Virus record (IMG/VR): IMGVR_UViG_3300020596_000062
Span: 1 to 38,013 of that record
Length of the DNA stretch: 38,013 bases
Source: a virus
Direction: 5' to 3' (one strand)
Below are positions 5,183 to 37,886 of the stretch, piece by piece. How positions within the stretch are numbered: the stretch's first letter is position 1; each line of letters starts with the position of its first letter. The notes under the pieces are model-generated. The model was given only the letters and a program-made list of their open reading frames with translations, made no database searches and was not told the origin of the DNA. The position numbers and the translations under genes were made by a program.

Positions 5183-5823
5183 AACTTCTGGCTGCCCTGT
5201 CTGTGTTGTTAATTCCGTGTTGCGCCGCAAGCTCCGCCCACCGCGTTAAAGTTGCGCACGCGGGGATGATTAGAATCGGCGACGTCGAACCGGAAACGCT
5301 GGCGGGCGTTCAAGAATTGTTTGACATGCGCGTGCGCGCAGGTGACCGCAACATCCTGTTTCGAATCGACTCGTTTGGTGGCAGCATTTTTGACGGTTTG
5401 GATTTCATGCAACACGTCGAAGACGCCAAAAAACGAAACAACATTACGGTAACGTGTGTCGTTGACACCCACGCGATGTCCATGGGTTTTGTGTTCCTGC
5501 AAGACTTCTGTGACACACGGCTAATGACCAAGCGTTCTGTTTTGCTTGCTCATAACGGGTCAGCCAGAGCTGCAGGCACCTCCGAGGAAATGAAGAGAAC
5601 AGCAAAATTTTTGGAAGAAATCAGCAACGCGTTGTCAGAAGTTTGCGCCGCGCGGTTGAACATCTCAGTGGCTGAATACAAAGCAAAAATCCAACACGCG
5701 GATTGGGTGTTTGGTTGGGAAGAAGCGTTAGCAGTTGGCGCCGTTGACGGCGTCGTGAACGTTTCGGATTTGCCACCGGATTTTTCATTAACTCCGACCG
5801 GACTTTTCGGCTCACTTTTCTAA
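5179..5823 (+). CDS. ClpP-like serine protease with an N-terminal signal peptide
   Basis: This 214-residue protein has the ClpP/crotonase-fold signature. IDSFGGSIFDGLDF (about 63-76) matches the InSpGGsv-aG strand. VDTHAMSMG supplies the nucleophile S101, LLAHNGS supplies H125, and HADWVFG near 175 supplies the aspartate, so the triad looks intact. Phage relatives usually process capsid proteins and lie between portal and capsid genes. Here the gene lies before the attachment site, far from the capsid gene. It also starts MKLLAALSVLLIPCCAA, a clear signal peptide with a possible lipobox (IPCC). Export to the periplasm or envelope is therefore predicted, which does not fit a simple prohead protease. 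It overlaps the upstream gene by ATGA. Confidence 0.8.
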   Translation: MKLLAALSVLLIPCCAASSAHRVKVAHAGMIRIGDVEPETLAGVQELFDMRVRAGDRNILFRIDSFGGSIFDGLDFMQHVEDAKKRNNITVTCVVDTHAMSMGFVFLQDFCDTRLMTKRSVLLAHNGSARAAGTSEEMKRTAKFLEEISNALSEVCAARLNISVAEYKAKIQHADWVFGWEEALAVGAVDGVVNVSDLPPDFSLTPTGLFGSLF

Positions 5824-5831
5824 CGCCCACA

Positions 5832-5875
5832 GTCCCCCACTTGGTCCCCCACTTTTACGAAAAAGTCCCCCACTT
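5832..5875 (+). repeat. Left-arm repeats of attP (probable integrase arm sites)
   Basis: GTCCCCCACTT occurs at 5832-5842, 5844-5854 and 5865-5875. The same element recurs to the right of the tRNA match and inside the integrase gene. Clustered direct repeats flanking a tRNA-derived core are the usual layout of arm-type sites bound by the integrase N-terminal domain. Confidence 0.7.
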
Positions 5876-5925
5876 GTGCTTTTTCCGCTTACTTGTAGGG
5901 TTGACTCTAGAGGGAGAATTAATTT

Positions 5926-5987
5926 GATGTAGGGTGCGGCCGAGCTTCCCAAGCTCAGGGTCACGAGTTCGAGCCTCGTCTACCGCT
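5926..5987 (+). other. attP: attP core: 3' part of a tRNA-Gly(CCC) gene
   Basis: The stretch reads like the last three quarters of a tRNA. It has the end of a D-loop, then an anticodon arm GAGC-TTCCCAA-GCTC (loop 5946-5952, anticodon CCC). A T-arm ACGAG-TTCGAGC-CTCGT (5963-5979) follows, then the acceptor strand CTACCGC (5980-5986) and a T discriminator. No matching 5' acceptor (GCGGTAG) lies upstream, so it is not a functional tRNA gene here. Phages that integrate into tRNA genes carry exactly such a 3' fragment to restore the gene. Its position just before the integrase supports attP. The exact crossover cannot be defined without the host sequence. Confidence 0.8.
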
Positions 5988-6005
5988 TAATAAATTCAGG
6001 AGTTT

Positions 6006-6026
6006 ACCGCAGGACGTTGCGGTTTT
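6006..6026 (+). terminator. Short hairpin with a T-run behind the tRNA match
   Basis: ACCGCA (6006-6011), a six-base loop and TGCGGT (6018-6023) are followed by TTT. It could be a weak intrinsic terminator that after integration lies behind the restored tRNA-Gly gene, and it may reduce read-through into the integrase. Confidence 0.5.
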
Positions 6027-6045
6027 CCCCGCGAAATCCTAAAAA

Positions 6046-6065
6046 GTCCCCCACAATCCCCCACT
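6046..6065 (+). repeat. Right-arm repeats of attP
   Basis: GTCCCCCAC (6046-6054) and TCCCCCACT (6057-6065) repeat the left-arm element. Two further copies, at 6313-6321 and 6324-6333, lie inside the integrase coding sequence, where they encode part of a proline-rich linker. Confidence 0.65.
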
Positions 6066-6098
6066 CGTTTGGAGACTACTGGGGGACCGGGGGAAATT

Positions 6099-7163
6099 TT
6101 GGCCAAGAAATCGGTTAAACACGGAACAAAAGCGTGGATCGGCGGATACGTTTACGCCGGGATTTTCTACATCCGCAAACAGGTAAGCGGCCGACGTTAT
6201 GACTTTAGTACCGGCGCACGTACATTGGCCGAAGCCCAAAACCATTGGGTAGCCTTCCAGCAAAAGACGGGATTGGTTGAAACTCCAACACTTCCCCCAC
6301 CGCCGACGGAAGGTCCCCCAGTTGTCCCCCACTCAACAGTTCCACCCGTGGTCCAAGGGCGCAAGGTCGTCATGACGTACGAGCTAATTGACGCCTTTCT
6401 GCGGTACAGCACGACAGACAAACAAAACTGCGATGAGTGGCTGAAACGAAAACGGCGGGTACTGCTTTGGTGGTACGAACAACTGGCAAACCGCGATCTG
6501 CGGACACTTTCCTATCAGACCCAAATTCTGGCAGCCCTGAATAGCGTGGGTGGCCACATAAATCGGCTGAAAATCCTTTATGGCTTCTATAGCTATTTGG
6601 TGACCACAGAGATTCTAGGACCGGCCGAACACGTGATGGTTCGGAAGTTCAAGCAGCAAAAAGCCAAGCCGGAACAATGGCGGAAAACCAAAGCACTAAG
6701 CGCCGAAGAGTTTAAGAAGGTCCGGTCGGGGTTGGCGAGACATTGGCGGGATGCTTTTGACGTTCAGATGGCCACCGGCTGGCATCGAACCGAGTTGGAG
6801 CGTTTTGTGCGCGGGGGCGCGGTGCACGGCAACAGCACAATTGAATGCCCACAAGCGAAGTCCGGAGAGCCGCTGATCCGTCCGGTATCCAAGGGCGTGT
6901 GGGAAGCGGCAAAGCGATTGGTCGAACGGGGCACGCTAAGCAAAAAAAGGTACTACCTCAGTGTGAAGGAAGCCGCCAAAGCGGCGGGAGTTCCATGGTT
7001 TTCACCTGGGTATGCACGCCACACGTTTGCGTCCCGGGCCGTGCACGACTTTGGAGTCGACCCCAAGGATGTTTCGGAATGGCTTGGACATAAGTCGCCA
7101 GACACAGTCAAGCGCTTCTACATTCAATTTAAGGTACCCAAAAAGATGAAAACGCTGATCTAG
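6099..7163 (+). CDS. int: Tyrosine recombinase (phage integrase)
   Basis: The enzyme catalyses site-specific recombination between attP and a host attB, here probably a tRNA-Gly gene. The 354-residue form starts at TTG 6099 behind GGGGGA, giving MAKKSVKHG; a TTG at 6069 would add ten residues. An N-terminal arm-binding domain is followed by a proline-rich linker near 64-86, then core-binding and catalytic domains. Visible catalytic residues are R in GWHRTEL (about 230), K in QAKSGE (about 254), R in YARHTF (about 307), H in WLGHKS (about 331) and the nucleophile Y in RFYIQF (about 341). The usual first His of HxxR is replaced by Gly. The gene directly follows attP, as in many temperate phages. 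Confidence 0.93.
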   Translation: MAKKSVKHGTKAWIGGYVYAGIFYIRKQVSGRRYDFSTGARTLAEAQNHWVAFQQKTGLVETPTLPPPPTEGPPVVPHSTVPPVVQGRKVVMTYELIDAFLRYSTTDKQNCDEWLKRKRRVLLWWYEQLANRDLRTLSYQTQILAALNSVGGHINRLKILYGFYSYLVTTEILGPAEHVMVRKFKQQKAKPEQWRKTKALSAEEFKKVRSGLARHWRDAFDVQMATGWHRTELERFVRGGAVHGNSTIECPQAKSGEPLIRPVSKGVWEAAKRLVERGTLSKKRYYLSVKEAAKAAGVPWFSPGYARHTFASRAVHDFGVDPKDVSEWLGHKSPDTVKRFYIQFKVPKKMKTLI

Positions 7164-7181
7164 CTGTAGGCAGGCGTGGGA

Positions 7182-7198: not shown

Positions 7199-7217
7199 GT
7201 CTGGTAGACTGTTTCTA

Positions 7218-9311
7218 ATGCCCTCCCCATCCAAGCCGTACTTCGCCTCCCTGCCCCAAGAAGAAATCGGACCCGAGTTGTGGAAGCGGGTTGAGGGGTA
7301 TCGAGAGTTCCTGAATTCGTCGCCCATCAAGACGCGCATCGACAAAAGCTACCGGGCCTATTACGGGATGTCGGACGACGGCGTTCGCTCGTACGAGATT
7401 TCCCGCCAAGGTACCCAGGGGGAATTAGCGCGAACCAAAATTTCGCATTTCCGCAATCTGATTCAGCACATCATCATTTTGGTGACTGCGCAGAAACCGG
7501 CCGCCCAAGCCATCGCATCGAATTCGGACGCCAAGTCGCAACAGCAAGCTTTGTTGGCCAACGGTATTCTGGACTACTACATGCGCGAGAAACGCATAGA
7601 ACGCATTCTGCGCGACGCGGTGGAACAAGCCACTGTTTGCGGCGAGGGTTTCGTTCACGCGGTCTGGAACGCCAACGTTGGCCGCGAGGTGATGATGGAC
7701 CAGGACACCATGCGCCCCATCCGCGAGGGTGACGTGGACGTCAAAACCGTGAGCTGGTGGAATCTGATTCGCGACCACACGAAATCGCGCGCGTCCGATC
7801 ACACGTGGGTAATTGTGCGTGACACCACCAATCGCTACGAACTCGCCGCGCAATTCCCGCAAGCCGCCGAAGAAATTCTCAAAACCAGCATGGACGATGA
7901 TTCGTCGACGATTGATTCATTTTCTTCGACCGGAAATTCCAAGCTCGAATCTGACGACATTGCACTGTACCGATTTTACCATCTGGATACCGACGCCGTT
8001 AATGGCGGTCGGGAAGTTTGGTTTCTCAGCAACGGCAAAACCGTACTGTTGGACACGCTCGGACAGGCGGGTTTGATTTACAAGAAATTGCCCGTGCATC
8101 GTTTGGCGGCAGCCGAAATCATCGGCACCACGTTCGGCTATACCGCGGCGTTTGACGTGTTGGGCCCGCAAGAGGTTCACGACAAATTAACGGGCATTCT
8201 GCTTTCGAATAATCTTTCAACCGGCGCGCAACGAATCCTGATTCCCCGCACCGCGAACATCCAACTCAGTGCGCTTGCCGAAGACTTGGCCGCGATTGAG
8301 TACGACCTGATTGATGGTGCCAAACCGGAAAGCTTACAGCTCACGAAGTCAGCGCCAGAAACCTACAAGATGCTCGAGATGATGGATTCCTATATGGAAA
8401 CCCTCGCTGGCATTTCGAGCGTTACCCGCGGCGATCCGTCGGCCTCACTGAAATCCGGCAGCGCACTGGCGTTGGTTCAATCCCAGTCCATTCAATTTGC
8501 GTCGGGCCTGCAAGCGTCTTACGCCGCGCTACTCGAAGACGTTCTAACGGCCGTTGTCGACATGCTGAAAATGTTCGCCACGGAGCCGCGGAAAATTGCG
8601 ATTGGTGGAACGGCCAAAAGATGGATGGCGCAAGAGTTTTCAGCTGATGATTTAGAGCCTGTAGACCGCGTCACTGTTGAAGCGGTTAACCCGTTGCGCA
8701 GTACGACGGCCGGTCGCCTTGAACTTGCCCAGATGCTGATTAACAGCGGTCAGGGCGTCAATCCCCGCGAATTAGTTTTGCTGGTGGAAACCGGCAACTT
8801 GGACGGCATGTTAGAACCGGCCCAAACATCGTTGCTGAACATGCGCCGCGAGAACGAGACTTTGGCACGCGGTGAATTTGTCCCCGTTGTTGTCACAGAC
8901 AATCACGCGGAACACATTGCCACACACAAAGCGTTGTTGGATTCACCAGACGCGCGCGAGAACCCGGCCATCGTTGCCGCGTTCACCGAACACGTTCAGG
9001 GCCATATCTCTACGTGGTTGAGCACGGACCCCGGCGTGTTGCAGTTACTCGGACAGCAACCGCCACCTCAGTTCGTGATGATTGATCCTATGACCGGCCA
9101 GCCCGCAATGGGTGGCGGTCCCGCGATGCAAGGTCCGGTCGGAGTAAACAATGGAACTCCCCCGCCGATGGCCGGCAATCCCACACAGACCGCCGCGCCG
9201 ATGCAAAACGTAATTGCGCCCACAAATACCCCAACCCCCCGCATGCCTAGAATGCCCAAAAATCCGATGTCTGGTGAGCAGTTCGACCCCAACCAATCCC
9301 TTCCCGAATAA
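7218..9311 (+). CDS. Portal protein (P22-like podovirus type)
   Basis: This 697-residue protein has the size and features of P22-like portals. An N-terminal helical region has conserved patches YRAYYGMSDDG and RTKISHFRNLIQHIIILVTAQKP. A central wing/stem region contains EVHDKLTGILLSNNLS and a long helix GSALALVQSQSIQFASGLQASY. The C-terminus is rich in Pro, Gln and Met and ends PNQSLPE. Portals form the dodecameric ring through which DNA enters and leaves the capsid and the terminase docks. ATG at 7218 was chosen because a longer reading from 7176 would run through the regulatory palindrome. A copy of the dispersed TCGACCGGA motif (7926-7934) encodes part of a Ser-rich loop. Confidence 0.88.
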   Translation: MPSPSKPYFASLPQEEIGPELWKRVEGYREFLNSSPIKTRIDKSYRAYYGMSDDGVRSYEISRQGTQGELARTKISHFRNLIQHIIILVTAQKPAAQAIASNSDAKSQQQALLANGILDYYMREKRIERILRDAVEQATVCGEGFVHAVWNANVGREVMMDQDTMRPIREGDVDVKTVSWWNLIRDHTKSRASDHTWVIVRDTTNRYELAAQFPQAAEEILKTSMDDDSSTIDSFSSTGNSKLESDDIALYRFYHLDTDAVNGGREVWFLSNGKTVLLDTLGQAGLIYKKLPVHRLAAAEIIGTTFGYTAAFDVLGPQEVHDKLTGILLSNNLSTGAQRILIPRTANIQLSALAEDLAAIEYDLIDGAKPESLQLTKSAPETYKMLEMMDSYMETLAGISSVTRGDPSASLKSGSALALVQSQSIQFASGLQASYAALLEDVLTAVVDMLKMFATEPRKIAIGGTAKRWMAQEFSADDLEPVDRVTVEAVNPLRSTTAGRLELAQMLINSGQGVNPRELVLLVETGNLDGMLEPAQTSLLNMRRENETLARGEFVPVVVTDNHAEHIATHKALLDSPDARENPAIVAAFTEHVQGHISTWLSTDPGVLQLLGQQPPPQFVMIDPMTGQPAMGGGPAMQGPVGVNNGTPPPMAGNPTQTAAPMQNVIAPTNTPTPRMPRMPKNPMSGEQFDPNQSLPE

Positions 9312-10301: not shown

Positions 10302-10318
10302 TTTTCTCGACCGGAACC

Positions 10319-12638: not shown

Positions 12639-13586
12639 ATGGCTTTGCCGTCATACGACACCACCGTGATGTTGGCGGCAATAAAGCGACGTGCATTCCG
12701 TCCCGTCTCGGATGGATTGCTTGCAGAGTCGGACATTCTGGCATTGGCCGATGAAGAAATCGCCACCGCCGTTGTGCCAATGCTTCTGCAAATCAGACAA
12801 GAGTTTTTCGTCACATACAGCGACTTAACTTTGTCGTCGACCCAAACGGATTATCAACTGCCCACGCGTGCAACGGCCGAGTCGTTACGTGACGTGACGC
12901 TGGTTGACTCCGCCGGGGGTATTTTTTCGATTCCGCGCTTAGAGGCTGACCAGCTCGACCGATTCAGTAATATTTCTTCGACCGGACTTTTGGGGTTTTA
13001 TCTTCGCGACAACACCGTTGTTTTGCTGGGTACCCCCGGTTCGTACTCGACACTGAGATTGAGCTACTTTACCCGTCCCAATAAGCTGGTGAATTTCGCC
13101 ACCGGGGCGGCTGGAAACACCGCAGTTGTGGCGTCCATTAATACCGCCACCAAGACAATCACGACGACGGCAACCATTCCGACGACGTTTACAACGTCCA
13201 CTCCGATGGATTTGATTTCGTACACGTCGCGATTCCAATCGCTGGCCATCGATTTAACTCCCACCGTAGCGGCTGGTACCACGCTGACGTTTGCGGCGAC
13301 GTTGCCCACCACGCTTAAGGTTGGCGATTATATAGCCTTGCAGGGTTATACGCCCGTCGCGCAAATTCCGGTCGAGTTATATCCCTACCTGTATCAGCGC
13401 GTGGCTTGCACAATTCTGGAGGTCGCCGGTGAATCTGGCCGTCTGGAACGGGCGCAAAAAGTACTAATTGAAATGGAAAAGAAAGTCATGACGGCGTTCA
13501 CGGAACGCGTGGCGGGCGAGGTTCGCAAATTGGTGAACGTGAACGGTGTTGGTGGCGTGAAAAACTGCCGGCGGCAGGTGTGGTAG
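12639..13586 (+). CDS. Head-tail adaptor-like virion protein
   Basis: This 315-residue protein begins with a helical segment (MLAAIKRRAFRP..., DILALADEEIATAVVPMLLQIRQEF) followed by SDLTLSSTQTDYQLPTRA. This start is typical of podovirus adaptor (head-completion) proteins that bind below the portal. A Thr-rich beta insertion (about 155-235) is followed by a C-terminal helical bundle (LYPYLYQRVACTILEVAGE, ERAQKVLIEMEKKV). The assignment rests on sequence style and on its place before the nozzle. It contains copies of the dispersed TCGACCGGA motif on both strands (12978-12986 and 13367-13375). Confidence 0.65.
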   Translation: MALPSYDTTVMLAAIKRRAFRPVSDGLLAESDILALADEEIATAVVPMLLQIRQEFFVTYSDLTLSSTQTDYQLPTRATAESLRDVTLVDSAGGIFSIPRLEADQLDRFSNISSTGLLGFYLRDNTVVLLGTPGSYSTLRLSYFTRPNKLVNFATGAAGNTAVVASINTATKTITTTATIPTTFTTSTPMDLISYTSRFQSLAIDLTPTVAAGTTLTFAATLPTTLKVGDYIALQGYTPVAQIPVELYPYLYQRVACTILEVAGESGRLERAQKVLIEMEKKVMTAFTERVAGEVRKLVNVNGVGGVKNCRRQVW

Positions 13587-13589
13587 CCA

Positions 13590-16187
13590 ATGGCAAAGAA
13601 AACAATCACCGCCGCAAAGGGGTTACGCACTTACGGGAATGTGTACACACGCCCCGAGGGTTCGGCGACAATTGCGGACAATGTTGTTATCGATCAGGGC
13701 GACGTCTGGGAAAAACGCCGTAGCTTTGGGAACAGTGGTACATACGCGGTATCCACGGCGTTAGACCTGCCGAACAAGCTGTTTTCATACCGCGACGGTC
13801 TGGTTATTCATCACGGCGCGGCCAGCATAACCGCCAACACCAATGCGGGTGCGCGCGTTCTAAGTACCGGGTGCGCACCGCCATCCGCGACGGCACGTGT
13901 GCAAGCAGCCCAGTCCAACCAGAATTTATATTTCACAACTTCGACCGGAATTCAGAAGCTAGAAAACATATCGGGCTCCGGTGCAACAGTGGGCGCTGCT
14001 GGCGGTAAAGTCGCGTTGGACATCTCGACGCTTTATGCCACCGACACCTCCGGAATGGGTTGGTTGCCTGCGGATTGCCAAGTTGCCTACCGGTATTGCG
14101 TAGGGCGAAAAGACACAAATAACAATCTACTGTTAGGGCCGATGTCCGGTCGGAAAATACTGACAAACCCACCCGGGACATTCACAATTGTGGCCGGACA
14201 GATCGCAGTTAATCTCGCGGCAACCTATGCGACGGTTACAACACCAACCGCGCATAACTTCAATCCTAATGACACCGTCTCTGTGGTTTTGGGTGGAGCT
14301 GGTGATAATGGTTTAAAGTTGATCGCGCAAGCTGGCGGTAGCGGCGGTTTCATTACTTTTGCGGCACCGGGAACGTGTGTTGTTCTTAGTACTCCGACTT
14401 CGACAACCTTCACGATTCAGTCCATTGGTGCAGTACCAGGATTGACTAGCGGAAGCACAACCACCCTTTCAACAGCATCTCGCAATGTAGATGTCACAAT
14501 CGACTTAGCATCTGCGTTGGGTGCAGATGAATTTGTTCAACTGTACCGCTCGCAACCCTCCGCGGGCGTATTAACCCCCCCAGACGATGAATTAAATTTA
14601 ATTTACGAAGGGACGGCATTTAACGCCGGTACGCCTGCCACCTACAAGGATATTGTGAGCGAGACTGGTCGCCGGGGCGCCTTGCCTGCGTACACCAACG
14701 CAACACAAGCCAACGGCGGAATCATCAACAACCATTTGCCCCCGCCGTTTGCAAAAGATATCGCATTATTTAATGGCGTGATGGTTTACGCCAACACTGT
14801 TTCCAAACAGCGAATGTTTTTGTCGTTGCTGGGTACAGGGTCAACAAGTTTGAACGTGGGAAACACGGTTACGATAGGGGGCCGTACATATACCGCGATT
14901 ATTGACACAACCTCAATTCCCGGCGCAAATCAGTTCCGTGTTTACACATCCGTTTATGCAAGCACAATTACTAAGAACATCGAAAACACCGCGCGGGATT
15001 TGATTAGGGCAATAAACGCCGATGCCAGCTCAACCTTATATGGTTTTTATGCGTCGACTGAGACTGACGCACCGGGCAAACTTTTACTCGAGAGCCGCCT
15101 GCTAGGTGCAAGCGCTTTTGCATGTACCGCTTCTAGTACGACGGCCGGAAACGCGTTTGTTCCCTCTTTGCCCACGACCGGTACGACGGTCCTGTCGAGT
15201 GATGATGCGGCCCCGAATCGTCTTTATTTCGCGCTGCCCGGGCAACCTGATTGTGTCCCCATCGCAAACTATATCGACATTGATGCGCGCACGGCCATTT
15301 TGCGCATTGCTGTTTTACGCGACTCCCTGTTTGTCTTTAAGGTGGATGGCATTTGGCGGCTAACCGGCAAGTCTAATTACACGGTTGATGTATTCGATAA
15401 CACCGCATGGTTGGTGGTTCCCGAGTCGCTGGCGGCATTGGGCAATCAGCTTATGTGTCTGACGAACCAGGGTGTCGTTGCTGTTTCTGAAACCGGCGTC
15501 CGTATTCTGAGCAATGACATCGAAGATGTTTTGGACGAGGCCGTTGTCACCGGACTGACGACTGAAATGTTTGGCGTCGGGTACGAATCTGACCGGCGAT
15601 ATCTGTTGTTTCTGCCGACTGACAACACGCGCGCAAATCCGAACGTTTGTTACTGCTTCAATACGATTACGGAAACGTGGACGCGGTGGAAGCCAGACGT
15701 CACAACAGACTTTGCCCGTTGCGGCATCGTTAATGCGTTCGACGATAAGCTGTATCTCGGCCAAACACTGACAGCGCTCACGGCATTGGCCGTCGAGTCC
15801 AAGCTGTATACGATCGCCGATTACGTCGGGGACACCGCGTTTATGGAAAGTGGCTTAAAGGGCGTCGTTGCTAACGTGCAGCTAACGCCGTTCACGGGCG
15901 GGGACGTCACCGACGGCAAGAATTTCCAAGAGGTCATCTTTGAATTTAATGAGCTAATTGAAGGCACGTTGGATGCTGGTTTCACGTCGGATTTAAGCAC
16001 TACCGAGGTCATAATTGCCGAGACCATTTCCGGTGGGCGCTACACGTGGCGGGTTGCTGTACCTCCCGACATGCGTCGCGCGGGTTGGTTACAAATACGT
16101 GTACAACACGCGTCCACCTCAATCAATTTCGCGTTGGCGGGCATTGCAATCAAATTCGAGCCTGTGAGCACAGAGGCCAGACGCTAA
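13590..16187 (+). CDS. Tail nozzle/stabilisation protein, beta-propeller-like
   Basis: This 865-residue protein starts in the manner of podovirus nozzle proteins (GNVYTRPEGSATIADNVV, DVWEKRRSF). It contains propeller-like blades such as FSYRDGLVIHHG, LRIAVLRDSLFVFKVDGIWRLTG, LGNQLMCLTNQGVVAVSE and YLLFLPTDN. These features resemble T7 gp12 or P22 gp10-type proteins that plug the tail and hold DNA in. A beta module around 410-530 (VGNTVTIGGRTYTAIIDTT...ENTARDLIRAIN) resembles the protein encoded at 11892. Two dispersed motif copies (13941 and 14145) lie in it. The stop overlaps the next start (TAATG). Confidence 0.75.
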   Translation: MAKKTITAAKGLRTYGNVYTRPEGSATIADNVVIDQGDVWEKRRSFGNSGTYAVSTALDLPNKLFSYRDGLVIHHGAASITANTNAGARVLSTGCAPPSATARVQAAQSNQNLYFTTSTGIQKLENISGSGATVGAAGGKVALDISTLYATDTSGMGWLPADCQVAYRYCVGRKDTNNNLLLGPMSGRKILTNPPGTFTIVAGQIAVNLAATYATVTTPTAHNFNPNDTVSVVLGGAGDNGLKLIAQAGGSGGFITFAAPGTCVVLSTPTSTTFTIQSIGAVPGLTSGSTTTLSTASRNVDVTIDLASALGADEFVQLYRSQPSAGVLTPPDDELNLIYEGTAFNAGTPATYKDIVSETGRRGALPAYTNATQANGGIINNHLPPPFAKDIALFNGVMVYANTVSKQRMFLSLLGTGSTSLNVGNTVTIGGRTYTAIIDTTSIPGANQFRVYTSVYASTITKNIENTARDLIRAINADASSTLYGFYASTETDAPGKLLLESRLLGASAFACTASSTTAGNAFVPSLPTTGTTVLSSDDAAPNRLYFALPGQPDCVPIANYIDIDARTAILRIAVLRDSLFVFKVDGIWRLTGKSNYTVDVFDNTAWLVVPESLAALGNQLMCLTNQGVVAVSETGVRILSNDIEDVLDEAVVTGLTTEMFGVGYESDRRYLLFLPTDNTRANPNVCYCFNTITETWTRWKPDVTTDFARCGIVNAFDDKLYLGQTLTALTALAVESKLYTIADYVGDTAFMESGLKGVVANVQLTPFTGGDVTDGKNFQEVIFEFNELIEGTLDAGFTSDLSTTEVIIAETISGGRYTWRVAVPPDMRRAGWLQIRVQHASTSINFALAGIAIKFEPVSTEARR

Positions 16188-26514: not shown

Positions 26515-28453
26515 CCCGCTCGGGGGTCCAGGGCACCAGCCGCCCGTTCTCCCAAACCGGTTCAGCATCTTTGTACCACTTGCGCATCATTGCCGGTTCA
26601 ACCCTGATGAGTACGTCTGGAACGTAGACTTCCATCGCCGTCTTCATCACTTCACACAGACGCATGGCCGCGTTGTGCGCAGCGGCATCCGGCGATTCCA
26701 GGATGATTTCATCGTGGATGAAACAGACCGGCCTGGAACCAAACAGCGGGGAATTCCGGTCGAGAAAACATTCGCGGGTAACTTGGTATAACGCCCATTT
26801 CGCACCGTCGGCAGCGAGCCCCTGGAAGTACGTGTTGCAACCGTCAGTATACCCGCATCCGCCGCGTAACCGGCGCGACACAAATTGACGGAACGTCGTC
26901 GGGCCACTGCGAACTTTGTCGCCCACGTGTTTAAAATATTTGACCATTTCCGGCCATCGTTTCAGCCACACCTCGCCGTAACGTTGGGCTTGGATTTTGG
27001 TCATCTTTACGCCGTATGTTTTATCCGCGAACTCAACCAGCTTGTCCGCACCCAATCCCCCCGGTTTGCCGAAATTAAAAACTTTTCCGAACTGGCGACC
27101 GTTTTTAAAATCGGGTTCGCCCTTGCGGCGCACTGCATCGTCGTATGACACTTTTAGCATTTGCGCGGCAAAGTCCAAGTGGAGGTCACGCCCCGCGTTG
27201 ATGGCGTCTGCCATTGCGCTGTCTCCGAACAGAAACAGGTTGCTTTGCGCGAGGGTGCATAGCTCCAATTGGGAGTAATCCGCCGAAATCCACACTTTCC
27301 CCCTAGGGGCTGAGAAGCATTCGCGCACCCCCACGAAATCCGGGATGCCCCACCGTTGGCGGTCGGCCTTGGAAAAGCCCCGCGGCAGGTTCTGTAAATT
27401 GGGACCGCTGCATGATGTTCTCCCCGAGCTCACCAGAACGTTGAACCGCGCGCGGATAGGATCCTCGCCACCTTGGCGCAACATGGGTAGGTATGTATCC
27501 AACTGCTTGTCTATTTTGGACAGCTGGGCCAGCTCCATTAATTCCGGATCGCCAGATTTCTCCAGCGTCTCGCGCGATATGGAAACTGCCCCCCCGCCCT
27601 TGCCGTCTTTGTCTGGTTTGGTCAACGGTGCCCGCATGCCCAGATTGGCATAAACGGCAATTACCCGCTCTTTGACATATTTTGTGTTCTTGGCCAGCTT
27701 AATGGTTCGCTTACGGGTGTTGTAATAGATGCCCGTTTGGAACAAGCGTCCACGGGATTCTTCACGGACACGAGACAGCAAAAGTTCCAGTCGAGAAACA
27801 TCTTGGATGTCGCACGTCATCCCCTGCACACGCATTAACTGCAGTGCCCATGCGTGTTGGCACTGGGTTTCGAAATCCGGGGTTTCAATGCCCGCGAGAG
27901 CCTGTCTCAAAAAAACTTGGAGGGTCGATTCTGCGTCGCGCTTGGAATACTCGACGGCTTCGGCCGGCCACTCTGCGATGGGGGTGCCGTCCAGCTCGGC
28001 GTACCGCATGCGCCAACCATCTTCGGATTTGTTCAGCTCCCACCCAAGGTAACGTTGTGCCAACGCGGCCAGGGTGTAGTGCACGCGCTCAAAAGTTTCG
28101 TCGCCGGGCTCATCTTCGTTTTCTTCGACCGGACGAAAAACCAGCTCGTTCTTTGCTATGTTAATCAGCTTTTCTCGGACCATCGTGTCCAAAATCCGGT
28201 GCTCATCATAGGCTGCCCACACCGCATCAGAACACTCCGGCCGCGCCTTTATTAGAACGGCACAGTCGAACGCTATATTATGCCCGATAATGGCGTCACC
28301 GCGCCGTAAACACTGTTCGAAAAATTTTGCACCTGTGATTGCGTCCAGTAAACCCACGTTGCCTTTTTCGTCCGCAAACGAAACACAGACCAGATGGGGA
28401 ACCGGATTCTCAGGAGTAATCACGTGTGTTTCCGTGTCGAACGCAATCAACAT
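26465..28453 (-). CDS. polA: DNA polymerase, family A, with 3'-5' exonuclease domain
   Basis: The 662-residue protein has an N-terminal proofreading domain: FDTETH with D6 and E8, GHNIAFDCAV near 60, and YSKRD near 170. The polymerase follows: SGRTSCSGPNLQNLPRG, motif A SADYSQLEL (about 390-398), the O-helix-like RQFGKVFNFGKPGG (about 453-466), and motif C FIHDEII (about 578-584). There is no 5' nuclease domain, as is usual for phage enzymes. ATG at 28453 is supported by TTTTGGAG upstream. It is probably the replicative polymerase, working with the primase-helicase on the other strand and with SSB. Confidence 0.95.
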   Translation of the reverse strand: MLIAFDTETHVITPENPVPHLVCVSFADEKGNVGLLDAITGAKFFEQCLRRGDAIIGHNIAFDCAVLIKARPECSDAVWAAYDEHRILDTMVREKLINIAKNELVFRPVEENEDEPGDETFERVHYTLAALAQRYLGWELNKSEDGWRMRYAELDGTPIAEWPAEAVEYSKRDAESTLQVFLRQALAGIETPDFETQCQHAWALQLMRVQGMTCDIQDVSRLELLLSRVREESRGRLFQTGIYYNTRKRTIKLAKNTKYVKERVIAVYANLGMRAPLTKPDKDGKGGGAVSISRETLEKSGDPELMELAQLSKIDKQLDTYLPMLRQGGEDPIRARFNVLVSSGRTSCSGPNLQNLPRGFSKADRQRWGIPDFVGVRECFSAPRGKVWISADYSQLELCTLAQSNLFLFGDSAMADAINAGRDLHLDFAAQMLKVSYDDAVRRKGEPDFKNGRQFGKVFNFGKPGGLGADKLVEFADKTYGVKMTKIQAQRYGEVWLKRWPEMVKYFKHVGDKVRSGPTTFRQFVSRRLRGGCGYTDGCNTYFQGLAADGAKWALYQVTRECFLDRNSPLFGSRPVCFIHDEIILESPDAAAHNAAMRLCEVMKTAMEVYVPDVLIRVEPAMMRKWYKDAEPVWENGRLVPWTPERVTAQKALTAPSVEIAA

Positions 28454-29050: not shown

Positions 29051-29382
29051 TGTGCATTCCTTTTGAAACGATCATCAGTTCCGGTCGAAGTTAATTGATA
29101 CGTCAGCAAGAACAACACACAACAACCCGCGTGAGCCAAGTGGGACAGACCACTTTCTGGGTCGTTATCTTCCCCGCGCGCGAATGCCCAGAGGTGTCGC
29201 ATCGTCGCGCCAATCAGACGAGACCAAGCCAGACCCTTACGCCAATTGTGCGCGTCATATTTCAGCGCGCCGAAACCCAAAACTTTGGCAATCTCTAACA
29301 TTGCCTCGGACGGCAACAATTCGACCGGGGTTTTGGTTGCATCGTATTTTAACGCCTCCCCAGGTGGGGGTGGAAAGCCCAT
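29047..29382 (-). CDS. DUF5664 / MazZ-like dATP/dGTP diphosphohydrolase
   Basis: This 111-residue protein contains KYDATKTPVELLPSEAMLEI, VLGFGALKYDAHNWRKGL, RHLWAFARGEDNDPESGLSH and HAGCCVLFLL. This is the conserved pattern of the small phage DUF5664 family, annotated as a dATP/dGTP diphosphohydrolase domain. Some members (MazZ) supply dGMP for 2-aminoadenine DNA synthesis, but no PurZ-like gene was seen here. A more general nucleotide-pool role is therefore likelier. It lies next to a second MazG-like gene. Confidence 0.8.
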   Translation of the reverse strand: MGFPPPPGEALKYDATKTPVELLPSEAMLEIAKVLGFGALKYDAHNWRKGLAWSRLIGATMRHLWAFARGEDNDPESGLSHLAHAGCCVLFLLTYQLTSTGTDDRFKRNAQ

Positions 29383-30786: not shown

Positions 30787-31973
30787 TCGTTTAGCTCCGG
30801 TTTGGGGGTTGCGACTTCTCTTATTGAGGATGATGCGCGGATCGACATTAACCCGCGACGGGTTAACAGGGTTTCAGCTTCACGGTACAATTTGGCGGCC
30901 GGTTCGTTCAGCGTCTTGGCATGAGACTGTAGGGCCTTTTTAATTGCTGTCTGGGTAAGGTCTAAACTGTTAAAAACAACATTGCGCGCGACCTCATCTC
31001 CGAACTCTTCTTTAAGAGCGTCGATTACTTTATTTGCATCAGAGTCTATCACTTTGTTTTGTACGTTAACTAGTTTCAATGTACGGCCATTTCCGATGTC
31101 TACAGGTTCTTCGTGAACACTGTCTTTTACCGCTTTAATAATTTGTTCAGCGATGTCACGAATTGCCGACGCTTTTTGATACGCCTCCGCTTTAGCTTTT
31201 GTGGATAGCGTTTTTGCAATTGTCTGCACATCTAGACCAAACACTTTTTGCAACAACCCCAACCGCGCGGGGCAATGCAACTGCGCGGGGCAGTTCTTAC
31301 AGTGCGGACCTTCCACGACGTCCGGAACGCCACGGTCCACTTGCTGGCGTTGCGCTTTGCGCACGTTCGTCGCGATGTCGCGCAATTCGGACTCAACCAT
31401 CAGTAGGTCAAGTTCCCCTAAAGAATGGTCCAGTCGAGTTATATCTCCCTCTTCGTTGATTTTGATTAACCCAATGCGCGCCTCTAGTTTTCCGTGGGCG
31501 CGCGCCGCCGCCAACGCGTAGAACTTGAGCTGTAAATTGTGTTCCGGCGCCGTCAAATGGCCACCAAAGCCAACCTTCCAATCCCAGATTTCAACATGGT
31601 TTTCAAAGATGCCCACGACGTCTGAGGTTCCATAGAATTCGGCGGGGTCGATGTCTTTGTATTTGCGGTTAACAACCTCGAATAAACGCCCCGCGCCCGT
31701 TGCGTGGTTCCACGCCAGACCGACCTCGCGTTGGTATTGCTCGCCAATGGGCAGACCAGACAATTCAATCAGCCGGCACAAATCTTGGTACTCGACCGGA
31801 ACCTGCGCGATTGCTGTTTCGCGATCCGACTCCGGACGCACCAGCTCCAAAAAGCGGTGAATTGCCGTGCCTCGTTCCATCGCGCCCGAGGCCAGTGAAC
31901 GGACATGTGGCAACACTTGGGAACCAGCGCAGATTGCTGCCAGTTGTAAACTAGAGGCACTGGGTAAGCTCAT
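30783..31973 (-). CDS. PD-(D/E)XK exonuclease, DUF2800/Cas4-like
   Basis: The protein has 396 residues from the ATG overlapping the upstream stop. The RecB-like nuclease core shows G-x-x-IHRFLELV (about 37-45), DVVGIFENHVEIWDWKVG (about 118-135, the D...E-x-K active site in variant form) and a Gln-containing helix HNLQLKFYALAAARA. A cysteine cluster HCKNCPAQLHCPARL (about 223-237) resembles Cas4/AddB-type iron-sulfur binding. Such enzymes resect DNA ends for the ERF annealase two genes upstream. The C-terminal 150 residues are helical. The dispersed motif at 31792-31800 encodes PVEY. Confidence 0.85.
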   Translation of the reverse strand: MSLPSASSLQLAAICAGSQVLPHVRSLASGAMERGTAIHRFLELVRPESDRETAIAQVPVEYQDLCRLIELSGLPIGEQYQREVGLAWNHATGAGRLFEVVNRKYKDIDPAEFYGTSDVVGIFENHVEIWDWKVGFGGHLTAPEHNLQLKFYALAAARAHGKLEARIGLIKINEEGDITRLDHSLGELDLLMVESELRDIATNVRKAQRQQVDRGVPDVVEGPHCKNCPAQLHCPARLGLLQKVFGLDVQTIAKTLSTKAKAEAYQKASAIRDIAEQIIKAVKDSVHEEPVDIGNGRTLKLVNVQNKVIDSDANKVIDALKEEFGDEVARNVVFNSLDLTQTAIKKALQSHAKTLNEPAAKLYREAETLLTRRGLMSIRASSSIREVATPKPELNE

Positions 31974-33494: not shown

Positions 33495-35779
33495 GTACCT
33501 CCCAACGCGTTGATACTGAGCGGCTCATGGCCGATGCGGGGCAAGAAGGCTTTGTGAAGTTCCTGGACAAGGAAGGGATTGCGTTTTCTCGTGCGGGGGA
33601 AACATTGCGTTTGGATTGCCCCACCACCGCGTGCAAACACAAAGATCCTGGCGACGAGGATGCGGCTGTGTTCTACGGCGACCAACATGGTTGGAAGTGG
33701 AAATGTCACAGCTGTAGCACGTACGGATCGCTGCTCGATTTGGTCCAGACGGTTAAACGAATAGATTTCAAGCCTGCGCTTGCTTACGTAGAAGAGTTGC
33801 TGGGCATTTCCGCAAAACCGGCAGCTCCTGGCATGGGCAAAGTACGTAAGCTGATTACGCCCGATGCCGAGAAGATTTGGGAACAGCTCAATCCAACCGG
33901 AACGCCCGCGGCTATGGACTATCTGGCGGGGCGCAATTTACGGGGCGCTGCGACCGAGGAAATGTCTTTAATTCGTTTCGCCCCTGGCACGTGCCAGAAT
34001 GACTTTGTTAAATTCATCAGCACGACGCATCCTGTTGCGGTGCCGTTGTCTGATGTGAACGGCGACATCCAATCCATCGTGTTTCGCGCCATTACAAAAG
34101 TTGAGGGGGCCACCAAACTCAACCTTAAGCATTGCCCAACAAAGGGGGTCTTCTTCGGTGAGCCGTGGCGTCTAGATGAATGCAACACCGTTGCTGTCGC
34201 CGAGGGTATGGCTGACACGCTTGCGCTACAGCTGTGGGCGCCGAAGGATGTCTGTGTTGTAGGCGCACCCGGAAAGGATTGTTTAGTTGCCCTAGCAGAG
34301 GTCCTGTCGGGTAATGATATTGATGTGGCGGGCAAGTTTTTCATGTTGTTCCCTCAGAATGACAGACCCAAGAACGCGAGCCGCAAAGAGTTTCTTAAGC
34401 TCGCGGCGTTATTGCGAGCGCGTGGAGCAAAGGCGCGTGTTGTCGCTACACCGGGGCAGTTTGAAGATGTTGCTGCCTGGCGCAATGATGAGAGGGATGC
34501 AGCGTGGCCGGAAGCGGAACGCCGAGAACCCGAAAGCACTTCGAGCAGCAAGACAATCAGAATGGACGCCCCCGAAGAAATTGAGTGGGGCGCTAATTTA
34601 CAATCATTGGTTAGAGCATTTCGCGATCCGGAAATGCGCAAGCTTATACTGCAGCAGTCCGAGCACCTTCGCTTTAACGCATTGAGCTTGGATGTTGTTT
34701 TGAAGAATGGTCCGCTGACAGATTGGGACATCACGCCGATTCGATACCAGCTCGAGATCCATATTCCCTCAGCCCGTAAGGTGAGGTTCTCCAAGGATGA
34801 TGTCGGTGACGCGCTGATGGCCGTGGCCCGCGAAAATATCTTTAACCCCATCCAAGACTATTTGAATGGGCTGCAATGGGATGGCGTTTCTCGACTAGGT
34901 CCGGTCGGAGTTATCAATAAGGTTCTGGGGCGTGACGGAACCGAGCTTGAAACTGCTTTCATTCGTAAGTTCATGGTGGCCGCGGTTGCGCGTGCCATGG
35001 CACCTGGCTGCAAGTTTGACAGCACGCTGATTATGACCGGCCCCGGCGAATCTTATAAGAGCACGTTTTGTAGAGTGCTGGCCGGTGACGATTACTTCCG
35101 CGATTCCCACATTGACATTAACACCAAGGATGGATTGACCGCCCTCAAGGGCAATTGGATTATCGAGTGGTCCGAGCTGACAGCGGTCAAGCGCGCGAAG
35201 GACCAAGACACCATTAAATCGTACTTGTCCGCCACGGTTGACAAATACAGACCCCCGTATGGCAGGACAGACATTTCGGTGCCCCGCGCATGTGTAATTG
35301 TGGGAACCACTAATGACTCGGAGTTTTTGAGTGATCCCACAGGCAACAGACGCTACTGGCCGCTAACCCTCAAGGGGAATATCGACATCGCGTGGGTTGT
35401 AGCGAACCGAGACCAGTTATGGGCAGAGGCGGTTTCTATTTTCAAAACGTGGTTGGCGGGGCGCCCCATCAGCCACTGTTATGTACAGAATGACCCAACC
35501 AAGCCGTGGTTGCTCACCAAGACCGAGCAGCAGCTACAGGCGCCCGAGGCCAGGAAGTACGAACTGTCGGACGAATGGGAAGACGAAGTACGTGGGCGTG
35601 TCGCTAAGTTACCACGTGGCTTTTCCATCCGAGAGGTTTTGGTGGACATAGGCAAACAAGAAGGCCACATCACCCGCGCAGATGAAATGCGTATGGGCAA
35701 GGTCCTGAGGACTCTGCGGTTTACCAAACGCCAGGATGGTCATGGCCGTAATCGCTGGTTTCCATTAGACGCTGCCTAG
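33491..35779 (+). CDS. Primase-helicase (zinc finger, TOPRIM-like, VapE/VirE-type ATPase)
   Basis: The 762-residue protein starts with a CHC2-like zinc finger (LDCPTTAC around 41-48, WKCHSC around 70-75). A TOPRIM-like segment (TVAVAEGMADTLALQLW, near 230) follows. The C-terminal ATPase has Walker A GPGESYKST (about 517-525), Walker B-like NWIIEWSEL (about 555-563), then IKSYLSATVDKYRPPYGRT and VIVGTTNDSEFLSDPTGNRR. The last is the hallmark of the virulence-associated E family. It probably makes primers and unwinds DNA at the phage origin, with the family A polymerase. It starts at GTG 33491, coupled to the ribbon-helix-helix gene. Confidence 0.9.
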   Translation: MSTSQRVDTERLMADAGQEGFVKFLDKEGIAFSRAGETLRLDCPTTACKHKDPGDEDAAVFYGDQHGWKWKCHSCSTYGSLLDLVQTVKRIDFKPALAYVEELLGISAKPAAPGMGKVRKLITPDAEKIWEQLNPTGTPAAMDYLAGRNLRGAATEEMSLIRFAPGTCQNDFVKFISTTHPVAVPLSDVNGDIQSIVFRAITKVEGATKLNLKHCPTKGVFFGEPWRLDECNTVAVAEGMADTLALQLWAPKDVCVVGAPGKDCLVALAEVLSGNDIDVAGKFFMLFPQNDRPKNASRKEFLKLAALLRARGAKARVVATPGQFEDVAAWRNDERDAAWPEAERREPESTSSSKTIRMDAPEEIEWGANLQSLVRAFRDPEMRKLILQQSEHLRFNALSLDVVLKNGPLTDWDITPIRYQLEIHIPSARKVRFSKDDVGDALMAVARENIFNPIQDYLNGLQWDGVSRLGPVGVINKVLGRDGTELETAFIRKFMVAAVARAMAPGCKFDSTLIMTGPGESYKSTFCRVLAGDDYFRDSHIDINTKDGLTALKGNWIIEWSELTAVKRAKDQDTIKSYLSATVDKYRPPYGRTDISVPRACVIVGTTNDSEFLSDPTGNRRYWPLTLKGNIDIAWVVANRDQLWAEAVSIFKTWLAGRPISHCYVQNDPTKPWLLTKTEQQLQAPEARKYELSDEWEDEVRGRVAKLPRGFSIREVLVDIGKQEGHITRADEMRMGKVLRTLRFTKRQDGHGRNRWFPLDAA

Positions 35780-35821: not shown

Positions 35822-35851
35822 TTGACGGAATGTATTACACGCCTCTATGTT
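35822..35851 (+). promoter_or_regulatory. Possible promoter of the HTH-receiver gene
   Basis: TTGACG (35822-35827) and TATGTT (35846-35851) are 18 bases apart. The predicted start near 35858 would favour the ATG at 35862 with little or no leader. Confidence 0.4.
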
Positions 35852-35861
35852 TGAGGCGCTC

Positions 35862-36455
35862 ATGCAAGGAACTAAGAAGACCGCAGACGATGCACTTCCC
35901 AAGGTTGGAGAATATTACTCCACTATTGAGATCGGGAAGATGTTGGATGTCACACCATCTACGGTGTGGCGTTGGATTAAGCAGGGCAGACTGAACGCGT
36001 ACAACACGCCAGGCGGACACAGACGAGTCCCCATCGCGGATCTACGCGAGTTCATAATCAAGAACGACATTCCCGTACCCACGATGCTGAGCTCGGCGGT
36101 CATCAAGTTATTGGTGATTGACGACCATGCAAAGGTCCTGTCGAGTCTTGATAAAGAAATCAAATCCGCGAAGGCCCCAATTGAGCTGATTGTGACCACA
36201 TCGGGCATTGATGCGATCATGATGATGGACAAGGAGAAGCCAGACGCCGCGCTGATTGATTTGAACATGCGCGAGGTTGATGGGCTGGCATTGGTTCGCA
36301 GGTTGGCCCAGAAGTACGCTGGCGGCCCGCTGAGGGTACTTACGATGACTGACTCGCTGACGGCCAAGGCCACAACAGAATCCGCCAAGGCGGGTGCAAT
36401 GGGGTGTCTGAAGAAACCCATCAAAGCGGCCATGCTGATGAAGCTGTTGAAGTAG
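35862..36455 (+). CDS. Excisionase-type HTH fused to a response-regulator receiver domain
   Basis: The protein has 197 residues from the ATG at 35862, behind GAGG; ATG at 35847 is possible. The N-terminal domain (about 18-66) reads EYYSTIEIGKMLDVTPSTVW then RWIKQGRLNAYNTPGGHRRV, a MerR/excisionase-type winged helix-turn-helix. The C-terminal half is a CheY-like receiver with all key residues: LLVIDDH (D87, D88), ALIDLNM (phospho-acceptor D133), VLTMT (switch Thr about 161-163) and CLKKPI (K185). It could be a phosphorylation-controlled excisionase or a lysis-lysogeny regulator that senses host kinases or acetyl phosphate; this is inference. No kinase gene is present in the phage. Confidence 0.88.
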   Translation: MQGTKKTADDALPKVGEYYSTIEIGKMLDVTPSTVWRWIKQGRLNAYNTPGGHRRVPIADLREFIIKNDIPVPTMLSSAVIKLLVIDDHAKVLSSLDKEIKSAKAPIELIVTTSGIDAIMMMDKEKPDAALIDLNMREVDGLALVRRLAQKYAGGPLRVLTMTDSLTAKATTESAKAGAMGCLKKPIKAAMLMKLLK

Positions 36456-36571
36456 CGTTACCTGGGAGGGGTGCGCTGCTGGGGCGGCGGAACGAACTGG
36501 CCAAGTCCGGTCGAAGAATATTATGTGCGAGGCTCGAGTCGGATCTATACGCACACAACCCAGGGATACCC

Positions 36572-37054: not shown

Positions 37055-37193
37055 CATCAGCACCCCGCGCATAATATTTACCTCGACCGGAACCACAGCA
37101 GTTCCCGCGACTTACTGTACTGGACTGGCAATTGTACCGTAACTCGTCCACGAACACTACCAGTGGTATGTGGGCAAGCGCCCTACCCCGACA

Positions 37194-37252
37194 GGTGGGG
37201 GGTGTGGGGGTGGGGTATGACACCTCGGGGGGTGGGGTATGAGAGTGGGGGG
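37194..37252 (+). other. G-rich direct repeats with G-quadruplex potential
   Basis: Six runs of at least four G (starting 37197, 37206, 37212, 37227, 37234, 37247) lie within 56 bases. GGTGGGGTATGA occurs twice. The first four runs could form a quadruplex on the plus strand. Confidence 0.6.
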
Positions 37253-37271
37253 CATACATTAAAAATTTTCA

Positions 37272-37333
37272 GGAATAAGTCAACGTTTCTTTACATACCT
37301 GCGGAATAAGTCAACGTTTCTTTACATACCTGC
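37272..37333 (+). repeat. Perfect 31-bp tandem duplication
   Basis: Units 37272-37302 and 37303-37333 are identical, running from GGAATAAGTCAACG to TTTACATACCTGC, with no spacer. They may be protein-binding iterons or a recent slippage duplication. Confidence 0.9.
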
Positions 37334-37340
37334 CCCCATG

Positions 37341-37367
37341 TGTATAGTTTTACTGGTTTTCTATACA
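37341..37367. promoter_or_regulatory. Inverted repeat TGTATAG/CTATACA
   Basis: TGTATAG (37341-37347) and CTATACA (37361-37367) flank a 13-base spacer directly upstream of the duplicated gene start. The right half includes TATACAAT, a possible -10. It is a likely operator or promoter for the gene at 37409. Confidence 0.5.
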
Positions 37368-37421
37368 ATACACCCCATGAATCCATCAGTTTCTATACAA
37401 TACACCCCATGAATCCATCAG
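37358..37421 (+). repeat. Perfect 32-bp tandem duplication spanning promoter and start codon
   Basis: Units 37358-37389 and 37390-37421 are identical. Each holds TATACAAT, a short CACCCC leader, and the first four codons ATGAATCCATCA. The upstream copy opens only an 11-codon frame ending at the TGA that overlaps the downstream ATG (CATGA), so it acts as a decoy or upstream frame. Confidence 0.9.
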
Positions 37422-37600
37422 ACTGGATTGAATTCAGCCCAGAAACGCTAATTCGGACCACGAATAAAGCTTATTGCATCCGAATGCATGGATTGCCTGT
37501 CTGGGTCCCTAAGTCGGCCACACGGTGGCCTCCCACGAAATTCGAAGATGGGGTCACGCTGGTGGTCGTAAAGCGCTGGTGGGCCGCCAAGGCGCTGTAA
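37409..37600 (+). CDS. Small phage protein (WVPKS-type)
   Basis: The protein has 63 residues from the ATG in the second 32-bp unit. The pattern LIRTTNKAYCIRMHG then LPVWVPKSATRWP resembles a family of small phage proteins of unknown function with a central W-x-PKS turn. A C-terminal beta strand and a Trp pair (LVVVKRWWAAKAL) follow. It is the first gene after the control region, in an operon that continues across the junction to rusA. Confidence 0.7.
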   Translation: MNPSDWIEFSPETLIRTTNKAYCIRMHGLPVWVPKSATRWPPTKFEDGVTLVVVKRWWAAKAL

Positions 37601-37767
37601 TGGGCTACGGCGGGTGTTTCTACCCCCAATGCACCATAAACCGGCTCGGTCCCGCTAAATTGACGCATTGCGGCATGATTCTGACGGACACTATCTCGAT
37701 GGACCGCAAAATCGGCAGCTTTCGCGCATTACCGATGCATTACCCCGCAGCTTCCATCGGCATATGA
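37600..37767 (+). CDS. Small Cys-containing hypothetical protein
   Basis: This 55-residue frame starts at the ATG that overlaps the upstream stop as TAATG, the coupling used repeatedly in this genome. It contains three cysteines (GGCFYPQC and HCGM) and ends ALPMHYPAASIGI. No family was recognised. Its stop overlaps a palindromic operator-like site. Confidence 0.5.
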   Translation: MGYGGCFYPQCTINRLGPAKLTHCGMILTDTISMDRKIGSFRALPMHYPAASIGI

Positions 37768-37785
37768 GTACCCATATGTACTCAT
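37764..37785. promoter_or_regulatory. Inverted repeat ATGAGTAC/GTACTCAT
   Basis: Two perfect eight-base arms (37764-37771, 37778-37785) surround six bases. It lies in the roughly 208-bp gap before rusA. The gap also holds two ACATCGGCAA repeats, a strong dispersed motif (37869-37877) and a weak TATAAG box in the junction overlap. A repressor site is likely. Confidence 0.5.
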
Positions 37786-37886
37786 TACGGCCGTTTATGG
37801 ATACGTTTAGGTTCGCGCAACATCGGCAACGCACATCGGCAAAATGACGCCCCGGGCTTAATATTTTCTCGACCGGACCTTAGATG

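Follow-up and report, generated by a model that had tools for sequence, protein, structure and literature searches.

A dispersed, AT-armed DNA word in a phage genome that resembles bacterial uptake signal sequences

Why should a phage genome be marked about once per kilobase with the same short, oriented DNA word? The question is raised by IMG/VR record IMGVR_UViG_3300020596_000062, analysed here as one window of 38,013 nt in which an earlier note had recognized a repeated core word with an AT-rich arm. The last 127 bp of the window (37887..38013, +) are a direct repeat of positions 1-127, therefore the genome is probably complete with a unit of 37,886 bp. A tyrosine integrase gene (6069..7163, +; PHROG 1, 9.7e-16) suggests a temperate phage, and a protein with HTH_17 and receiver domains is encoded at 35847..36455 (+; Pfam Response_reg 2e-18, HTH_17 1e-11). 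Neither tRNA genes nor Rfam families were found in the window.

The dispersed word is real, and its copies lie where they had first been reported. In the whole window, TCGACCGGA occurs 16 times exactly (9+, 7-), CCGACCGGA 8 times (3+, 5-) and CGACCGGA 24 times, with 12 copies in each orientation. Position five of CGACCGGA accepts any base: when the YY and M flanks are required, nine copies carry one of its three alternatives, and a single copy carries any of the 21 alternatives at the remaining seven positions (26 without the flanks). The core, YYCGAC-N-GGAM, is therefore wrongly described as “almost palindromic”, and the first reading of the motif was incomplete in missing nine non-C copies. 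This brings the total to 33 copies, 24 with N=C and nine with another base. The arm is an AT-rich stretch of 9-12 nt, TAATATTTTC-like, lying 5′ of the core, and in the N=C copies it holds 76% A+T over 10 nt as compared to 46 +/- 3% in random sets (maximum 58% in 5000), confirming what the earlier note had seen; the flank on the other side has 51% against 46%. At 23 of the 33 window sites the arm has at least 7 of 10 positions A+T, and six of the nine TAATATT strings in the window begin at most 32 nt upstream of a site. Refined by EM, the window motif reads TCC.GTCGga.aaa, and in this orientation, opposite to that of the core as given above, the consensus is TCCNGTCGRR.

Sites are present in head/tail genes and replication genes alike, and 29 of the 33 are inside genes, 16 with transcription and 13 against it. 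The residues that they encode follow a preferred frame: of the genic N=C sites, 10 of the 11 on the same strand as their gene encode S/P-T-G, and six of the nine on the opposite strand P-V-E/G. S-T-G is encoded at 7925..7935 (+, portal gene), 12968..12987 (+, with a TAATATTT arm), 13940..13950 (+), 22172..22182 (-, without arm), 24957..24977 (-, TAATATTT arm), 26196..26206 (+) and 29079..29089 (-), and P-T-G at 5793..5803 (+, in gene 5179-5823), 17318..17328 (+) and 20510..20520 (+). P-V-E is encoded at 13366..13376 (-), 20248..20268 (-, TAATATTT arm), 28124..28134 (+, DNA polymerase gene) and 31791..31801 (+), and P-V-G at 9133..9143 (-, portal gene) and 34899..34909 (-). Further N=C sites lie at 6720..6730 (-, arm weak, in the integrase gene), 14144..14154 (-), 19103..19113 (-) and 26754..26764 (-, DNA polymerase gene). 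Non-coding DNA, 10.5% of the window, has the remaining four sites, all N=C: 10306..10316 (+, arm strong), 36505..36523 (-, TAATATT arm), 37072..37092 (+, TAATATTT arm; counted as intergenic, although a small ORF without family match, 36992-37309, would contain it) and 37859..37878 (+, TAATATTT arm). The non-C copies are those with N=G at 1301..1311 (-), 3871..3881 (+) and 20156..20166 (+), with N=A at 2666..2676 (+, AT arm), 15189..15199 (-, arm weak), 34301..34311 (-, AT arm) and 36135..36145 (-, within the HTH-receiver gene), and with N=T at 27785..27795 (-, DNA polymerase gene) and 31428..31438 (-). A motif desert at 1-5.8 kb, suspected when no copy had been noticed up to 5.79 kb, is ruled out by three of these, at 1302(-), 2668(+) and 3873(+).

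Could such a series arise by chance, or as an artefact of codon usage? The word does prefer a few reading frames, as an artefact would; however, no 8-mer in the window is more strongly over-represented than CGACCGGA (24 copies, 1.44 expected under an order-3 Markov null), which also ranks first within genes, with 20 copies against 1.84 +/- 1.29 (maximum 7) in 1000 synonymous-codon shuffles. The Markov table, like that of the polymerase relatives below, required a word to have at least three different letters and at least four copies, and the gene calls are our own, with 12 gene starts trimmed to internal ATGs by eye for the codon-shuffle test. For the motif with any N, 29 genic copies compare with 1.41 +/- 1.16, and 0 of 1000 codon-preserving shuffles reach 29, so that the excess over a codon-matched null, named beforehand as the check that could refute the word, is confirmed. 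The reversed pattern occurs 0 times in the window against 33 sites, the four copies counted as intergenic have strong arms, and random placement leaves the arm unexplained. An artefact is thus scarcely credible.

The copies amount to 33 per 37,886-bp unit, one per 1.15 kb or 871 per Mb (N=C copies alone, 631 per Mb of window), and both orientations occur throughout the genome, 15+/18- with frequent alternation. On the circle the 33 sites are spaced more regularly than random placement gives (cv 0.633, P=0.002), a regularity that rests on the nine non-C copies since the 24 N=C sites alone give P=0.17 on the circle. Strict strand alternation was considered and dropped: the 24 N=C sites give P=0.01 on a line and 0.03 as a circle, but all 33 sites taken together give 0.07. 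A dispersed, asymmetric, genome-wide distribution would also suit another host chromosome-wide signal adopted by the phage, such as a Chi-like hotspot or a segregation or nucleoid-occlusion site. From signals of the Chi or KOPS type one expects strand polarity along replication, and an AT arm is unusual for Chi; such polarity is not seen in the phage (15+/18-), and a host with this kind of excess was likewise absent from the genomes scanned below. We consider this explanation rather improbable.

We take the word to be a DNA recognition signal spread over the whole genome, whose copies probably arose by point mutation, and the main rival to a signal imposed by the host is a phage-encoded protein, be it silencer, repressor or nucleoid-type, that binds the sites and coats or partitions the phage genome. 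A DNA-binding protein is indeed encoded: the HTH_17-receiver protein is, judged from its domains, a possible candidate binder, and four sites lie within or past its gene in the repeat-rich right-end region. We used as a yardstick the stoperators of Bxb1, a Cluster A mycobacteriophage, searched over 49,999 of 50,550 bases with what we take to be the stoperator pattern, which agrees with words found de novo in Bxb1. Like the phage motif, they form 20-30 dispersed asymmetric sites per phage genome. However, 23 of 28 Bxb1 sites are not wholly inside a gene and 27 of 28 have one orientation relative to the nearest gene, whereas the phage sites are intragenic in 29 of 33 cases and ignore transcription (16 against 13). 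This disfavours the stoperator alternative raised by the earlier note, and a phage-encoded binder in general strikes us as unlikely, though less so than a Chi-like or segregation signal.

A much closer match is phage HP1 with the Haemophilus uptake signal (Hin-USS, AAGTGCGGT), which shares with our phage density, even spacing, occurrence on both strands and a preferred frame for genic copies. HP1 carries 525 signals per Mb as compared to 871 in the phage, evenly spaced in both (cv 0.51, P=0.003 on a line in HP1), with 10 of 15 genic HP1 copies in one frame, perfect copies outnumbering one-mismatch copies (17 against 9) as in the phage, and an AT-rich flank on one side, so the resemblance to uptake sequences first proposed is borne out in most of these respects. 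The phage differs in its core (TCCNGTCGRR, without GCGG), whose middle base is free, and in showing a single AT arm where Hin-USS has two. Genic HP1 signals also favour one orientation (11 against 4), as known uptake sequences do (PMC2346458), whereas the phage shows no preference (16 against 13).

One study gives as traits of uptake sequences about one copy per kb, unbiased orientation, regular spacing, perfect copies far exceeding singly mismatched ones, and AT-rich motifs on one side (PMC1626085). The phage motif has these traits if the middle base is counted as free: its strong consensus recurs at about one per kb, the free middle base being a departure, with no genome-wide orientation bias, regular spacing and a one-sided AT-rich segment of the Pasteurellaceae type. 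Its density is comparable to the saturation of about 750 per Mb given for uptake signals in a second study, where Pasteurellaceae prophages are almost all signal-rich and large, likely lytic phages poor (PMC6776037). The DUS of Neisseriaceae (GCCGTCTGAA and its dialects) likewise occurs about once per kb without genome-wide orientation bias, but according to the first of these studies it has no flanking motif (PMC1626085), unlike the armed phage word. Uptake signal cores are GCGG in Pasteurellaceae and CTG, the inner core of DUS, in Neisseriaceae, as given in a 2025 paper (PMC12616744); both are absent from the phage consensus TCCNGTCGRR, thus the motif is neither a Pasteurellaceae nor a Neisseriaceae signal.

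Does any known bacterium or virus share the word? A bacterium that uses an uptake signal has hundreds to thousands of copies in its genome. Among 84,980 species scanned, the armed word gave 35 single hits in 34 genomes and no enriched genome; at the window rate (5 per 38 kb) several hundred would be expected in a 3-Mb host. Another armed pattern, found twice in the window, had one hit each in three of the 34 hit genomes and none in the rest, leaving out L036, which is the same organism as L023. The host-wide excess that the earlier note had proposed to look for was not seen in any genome scanned, a set that may lack the true host. In IMG/VR, the armed pattern had two single hits for N=C and ten for any N, those two included, and another set of armed patterns had none, therefore IMG/VR shows no further phage from such a host. 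Local sequence around one site is identical in the two N=C hits, and YYCGACNGGAM is absent from both contigs. Among 14 records searched for YYCGACNGGAM, a 52-kb record has 4 against 0 reversed and a 189-kb record 5 against 4; of the other 12, four have 1 or 2 and eight none. One further locus, L063, has seven CGACCGGA, all without arm. Single armed copies at most in the other records scanned are what a phage's own binder would leave.

Relatives of the phage were also followed. The nearest one (portal 38%, capsid 40% identity) has 0 CGACNGGA in an 82-kb contig, and its host genome has 4 YYCGACNGGAM against 18 control; across 78 genomes of that host's class, WTTNYYCGACCGGAM occurs 13 times against 27 reversed, at most 3 per genome, as compared to 11 in the window. 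No armed hit was found in 398 Pseudomonadota. In 80 polymerase-relative loci (1.29 Mb), all included in the count, YYCGACNGGAM occurs 35 times against 25 for the reversed pattern, and a single copy has an arm with 7/10 A+T or more; the word table of these relatives dropped 13 loci below 9 kb. The armed word is thus not in excess in the nearest relative or the polymerase relatives, so no lineage-wide binder is seen, all relatives being distant, and with structural and polymerase relatives both lacking the excess, the pressure seems to have been exerted on the assembled genome. Searches of IMG/VR for TerL, portal and portal-alignment relatives confirmed none. A portal profile found no match in 369 genomes of one class; from a second phylum, with 297 genomes covered, it recovered just one portal of 22% identity, whose genome has 90 YYCGACNGGAM against 106 reversed. 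One polymerase relative, MW202816 (30%), has dispersed words of its own around CCGWCG (24 genic CCGTCGGA, 2.5 in codon shuffles); refining them yielded no sharply defined motif, so we build no conclusion on it. A literature search for the 9-mer returned unrelated titles only, among the matches listed, and one for a dispersed DNA uptake sequence in a bacteriophage genome found none.

Taken together, we favour a host-imposed, uptake-sequence-like signal of a bacterium as the best reading, giving it a little under an even chance. The integrase counts in its favour; against it we count the negative host scans, the near lack of hits in IMG/VR, the lack of orientation preference inside genes, the dependence of even spacing on non-C copies, the at most slight preference for non-coding DNA (4 of 33 sites in 10.5% of the window) where uptake sequences favour it, and the lack of GCGG or CTG. 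From these comparisons, the signal most likely works like Pasteurellaceae uptake signal sequences. We infer a host with the same signal, its competence, and uptake as the function: the host would be naturally competent with an uptake machine favouring DNA that bears the signal, and a temperate phage long associated with it would gather copies at host-like density, because, as we propose, signal-bearing phage DNA would be preferentially taken up and recombined. The first interpretation is thus partly upheld, in its likeness to uptake sequences, and not in the palindrome or the empty first 5.8 kb.

According to the same 2025 paper, discrimination of self DNA through short, enriched sequence motifs is known in Neisseriaceae and Pasteurellaceae alone (PMC12616744). 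That the armed YYCGACNGGAM is a third, independently evolved uptake dialect of an undiscovered competent lineage outside both families is plausible, yet somewhat less probable than a host-imposed signal as such. If the sites instead answer to a phage-encoded protein, they would differ from the Bxb1 stoperators as an array that covers the whole genome at even spacing and lies mostly inside genes. The signal sequence is new, and its pattern is much like that of the uptake signals in Haemophilus and its phages. If a third signal is true, sequence-specific uptake would have evolved again, a simple word count could identify the host of the phage, and a virus could reveal an uptake dialect while its host is still to be found.

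The dispersed word forms part of a wider motif, YYCGACNGGAM with an AT-rich arm on its 5′ side. The earlier note had reported TCGACCGGA 16 times and CCGACCGGA 8 times, and both counts are right; however, its motif was too narrow, as the flanks are restricted and the fifth base of the 8-nt core word CGACCGGA is variable. Alignment of 24 copies revealed the AT-rich arm 5′ of the core, pyrimidines at the two bases 5′ of CGACCGGA in 24/24, and A or C at the base 3′ of it, again in 24/24. Further sites differing solely at the fifth base were recovered by a weight-matrix scan: with both flanks required, single-base variants at this position gave 9 extra copies and those at the other seven positions together 1 (26 when the flanks were not required). 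The full set thus consists of 33 sites (24 C, 4 A, 3 G and 2 T at the fifth base), and the reversed pattern has 0 copies in the window. Nine non-C copies compare with 0.55 under a first-order Markov null (maximum 3 of 200) and 0.88 in codon-preserving shuffles of genes (maximum 7; 0/1000 reach the count). Counting the non-C copies in the set has independent support: their arm is also AT-rich (62% vs 46%, P=0.003) and their inclusion turns a spacing that is unremarkable for N=C alone (P=0.17) into a significantly regular one (P=0.002).

By our own gene calls, 29 sites are genic, against 1.41 in codon-preserving shuffles (maximum 5; 0/1000 reach 29), and 4 are intergenic, all with strong arms; the site at 37084 was counted as intergenic, where a small ORF without family match would contain it. 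Among the 20 genic N=C copies, 10/11 on the same strand as the gene encode Ser/Pro-Thr-Gly and 6/9 on the opposite strand Pro-Val-Glu/Gly. Homologue alignments, examined for 17 sites (6/17 lacked a covering homologue), place several in gap-prone, tolerant loops, with a gap nearby in 47/48 covering homologues at polymerase site 28126 and in 8/8 at primase site 34900, while others, among them 13367 and 13942, align gap-free (one homologue each for these two). The simplest origin would be point mutation in place; insertion may have occurred at the gapped sites, the alignments being distant.

The 38,013-bp contig carries an identical 127 bp at both ends (1-127 and 37887-38013, an exact terminal direct repeat), therefore the genome is probably complete, a circular or terminally redundant unit of 37,886 bp. 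Among its products are terminase, portal, capsid and further head and tail proteins, as well as an integrase, DNA polymerase, Erf annealing protein, exonuclease and primase-helicase. A ClpP-like protein (5179-5823; Pfam CLP_protease, 2e-11) lies between terminase and integrase, and at 35847-36455 this phage has an HTH_17 domain fused to a response-regulator receiver domain. The stretch 36699-37421 has no clear genes; in it lie a TATATA tract (36704-36725), directly repeated GCGTAAATGTTTACGC-type units and two tandem doublets, both perfect, one of 31 nt and one of 32 nt. Part of the stretch is flanked by an inverted pair of sites, 36506(-) and 37084(+). The stretch may serve as an origin of replication or as a control region.

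As yardsticks we used Haemophilus phage HP1 and mycobacteriophage Bxb1. In 32 kb, HP1 carries its uptake signal AAGTGCGGT 17 times, and a further 9 copies have one mismatch. The signal ranks first among the 9-mers, its spacing is even (P=0.003), and one frame holds 10/15 genic copies. The window motif follows largely the same pattern, apart from its orientation within genes, where HP1 prefers one direction (11 vs 4) and the window motif neither (16 along the gene, 13 opposite). Uptake sequences are described in passages of PMC1626085 as occurring about once per kb, with regular spacing, strong consensus and no orientation bias, those of Pasteurellaceae having AT-rich motifs on one side; an account of Pasteurellaceae phages has them accumulating uptake sequences, large, likely lytic ones excepted (PMC6776037), and another notes one favoured orientation inside genes (PMC2346458). 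These descriptions agree with the yardstick results. In Bxb1, by contrast, 23/28 stoperators are not wholly within a gene and 27/28 face the same way relative to the nearest gene, in line with a description of stoperators as oriented along transcription (PMC6550527); the window motif differs in both genic placement and orientation. This statistical profile speaks for a signal of the uptake type, and a host uptake signal is the reading that we tentatively place first, at a little short of evens.

The search for kin and host gave no such host. The armed word matched 35 stretches, once each, among 84,980 species genomes, and IMG/VR gave single matches only (2 for N=C, 10 for any N, the 2 included). 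In 80 polymerase-relative loci (1.29 Mb), YYCGACNGGAM occurs 35 times vs 25 reversed, at most 4 per locus, and 1 copy has an arm with at least 7 of 10 A+T; the window alone has 33 copies, 23 of them with such an arm. The Manatee Spring myovirus MW202816.1 (30% polymerase identity) carries scattered words of a different kind, built around CCGWCG, with genic CCGTCGGA at 24 vs 2.5 in codon shuffles. The nearest structural relative, with identities of 38% in the portal, 40% in the capsid and 33% in the terminase, is a phage region within a genome from the same phylum as genome G020, which we infer to be Pseudomonadota. CGACNGGA is absent from its contig, its genome shows no excess of YYCGACNGGAM (4 vs 18 for the reversed control), and the motif is not enriched in its class (78 genomes) or in 398 genomes drawn from its phylum. 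This relative is the phage region G279:C114 (loci L146, L148-L150, L152, L153); its contig measures 82 kb and has 33% GC.

That no enriched host was found among the genomes scanned argues against any host signal, including some other host-wide signal, which we consider improbable. In everything scanned the excess is private to this virus, which fits a phage-encoded protein binding at many sites, a reading we rate as rather unlikely; it also fits an unsampled host, because the collections scanned hold no close relative of the virus. The motif is filed as working like an uptake sequence, and not as an uptake signal sequence (USS) or a Neisseriaceae DNA uptake sequence (DUS), since its core fits neither known uptake family.
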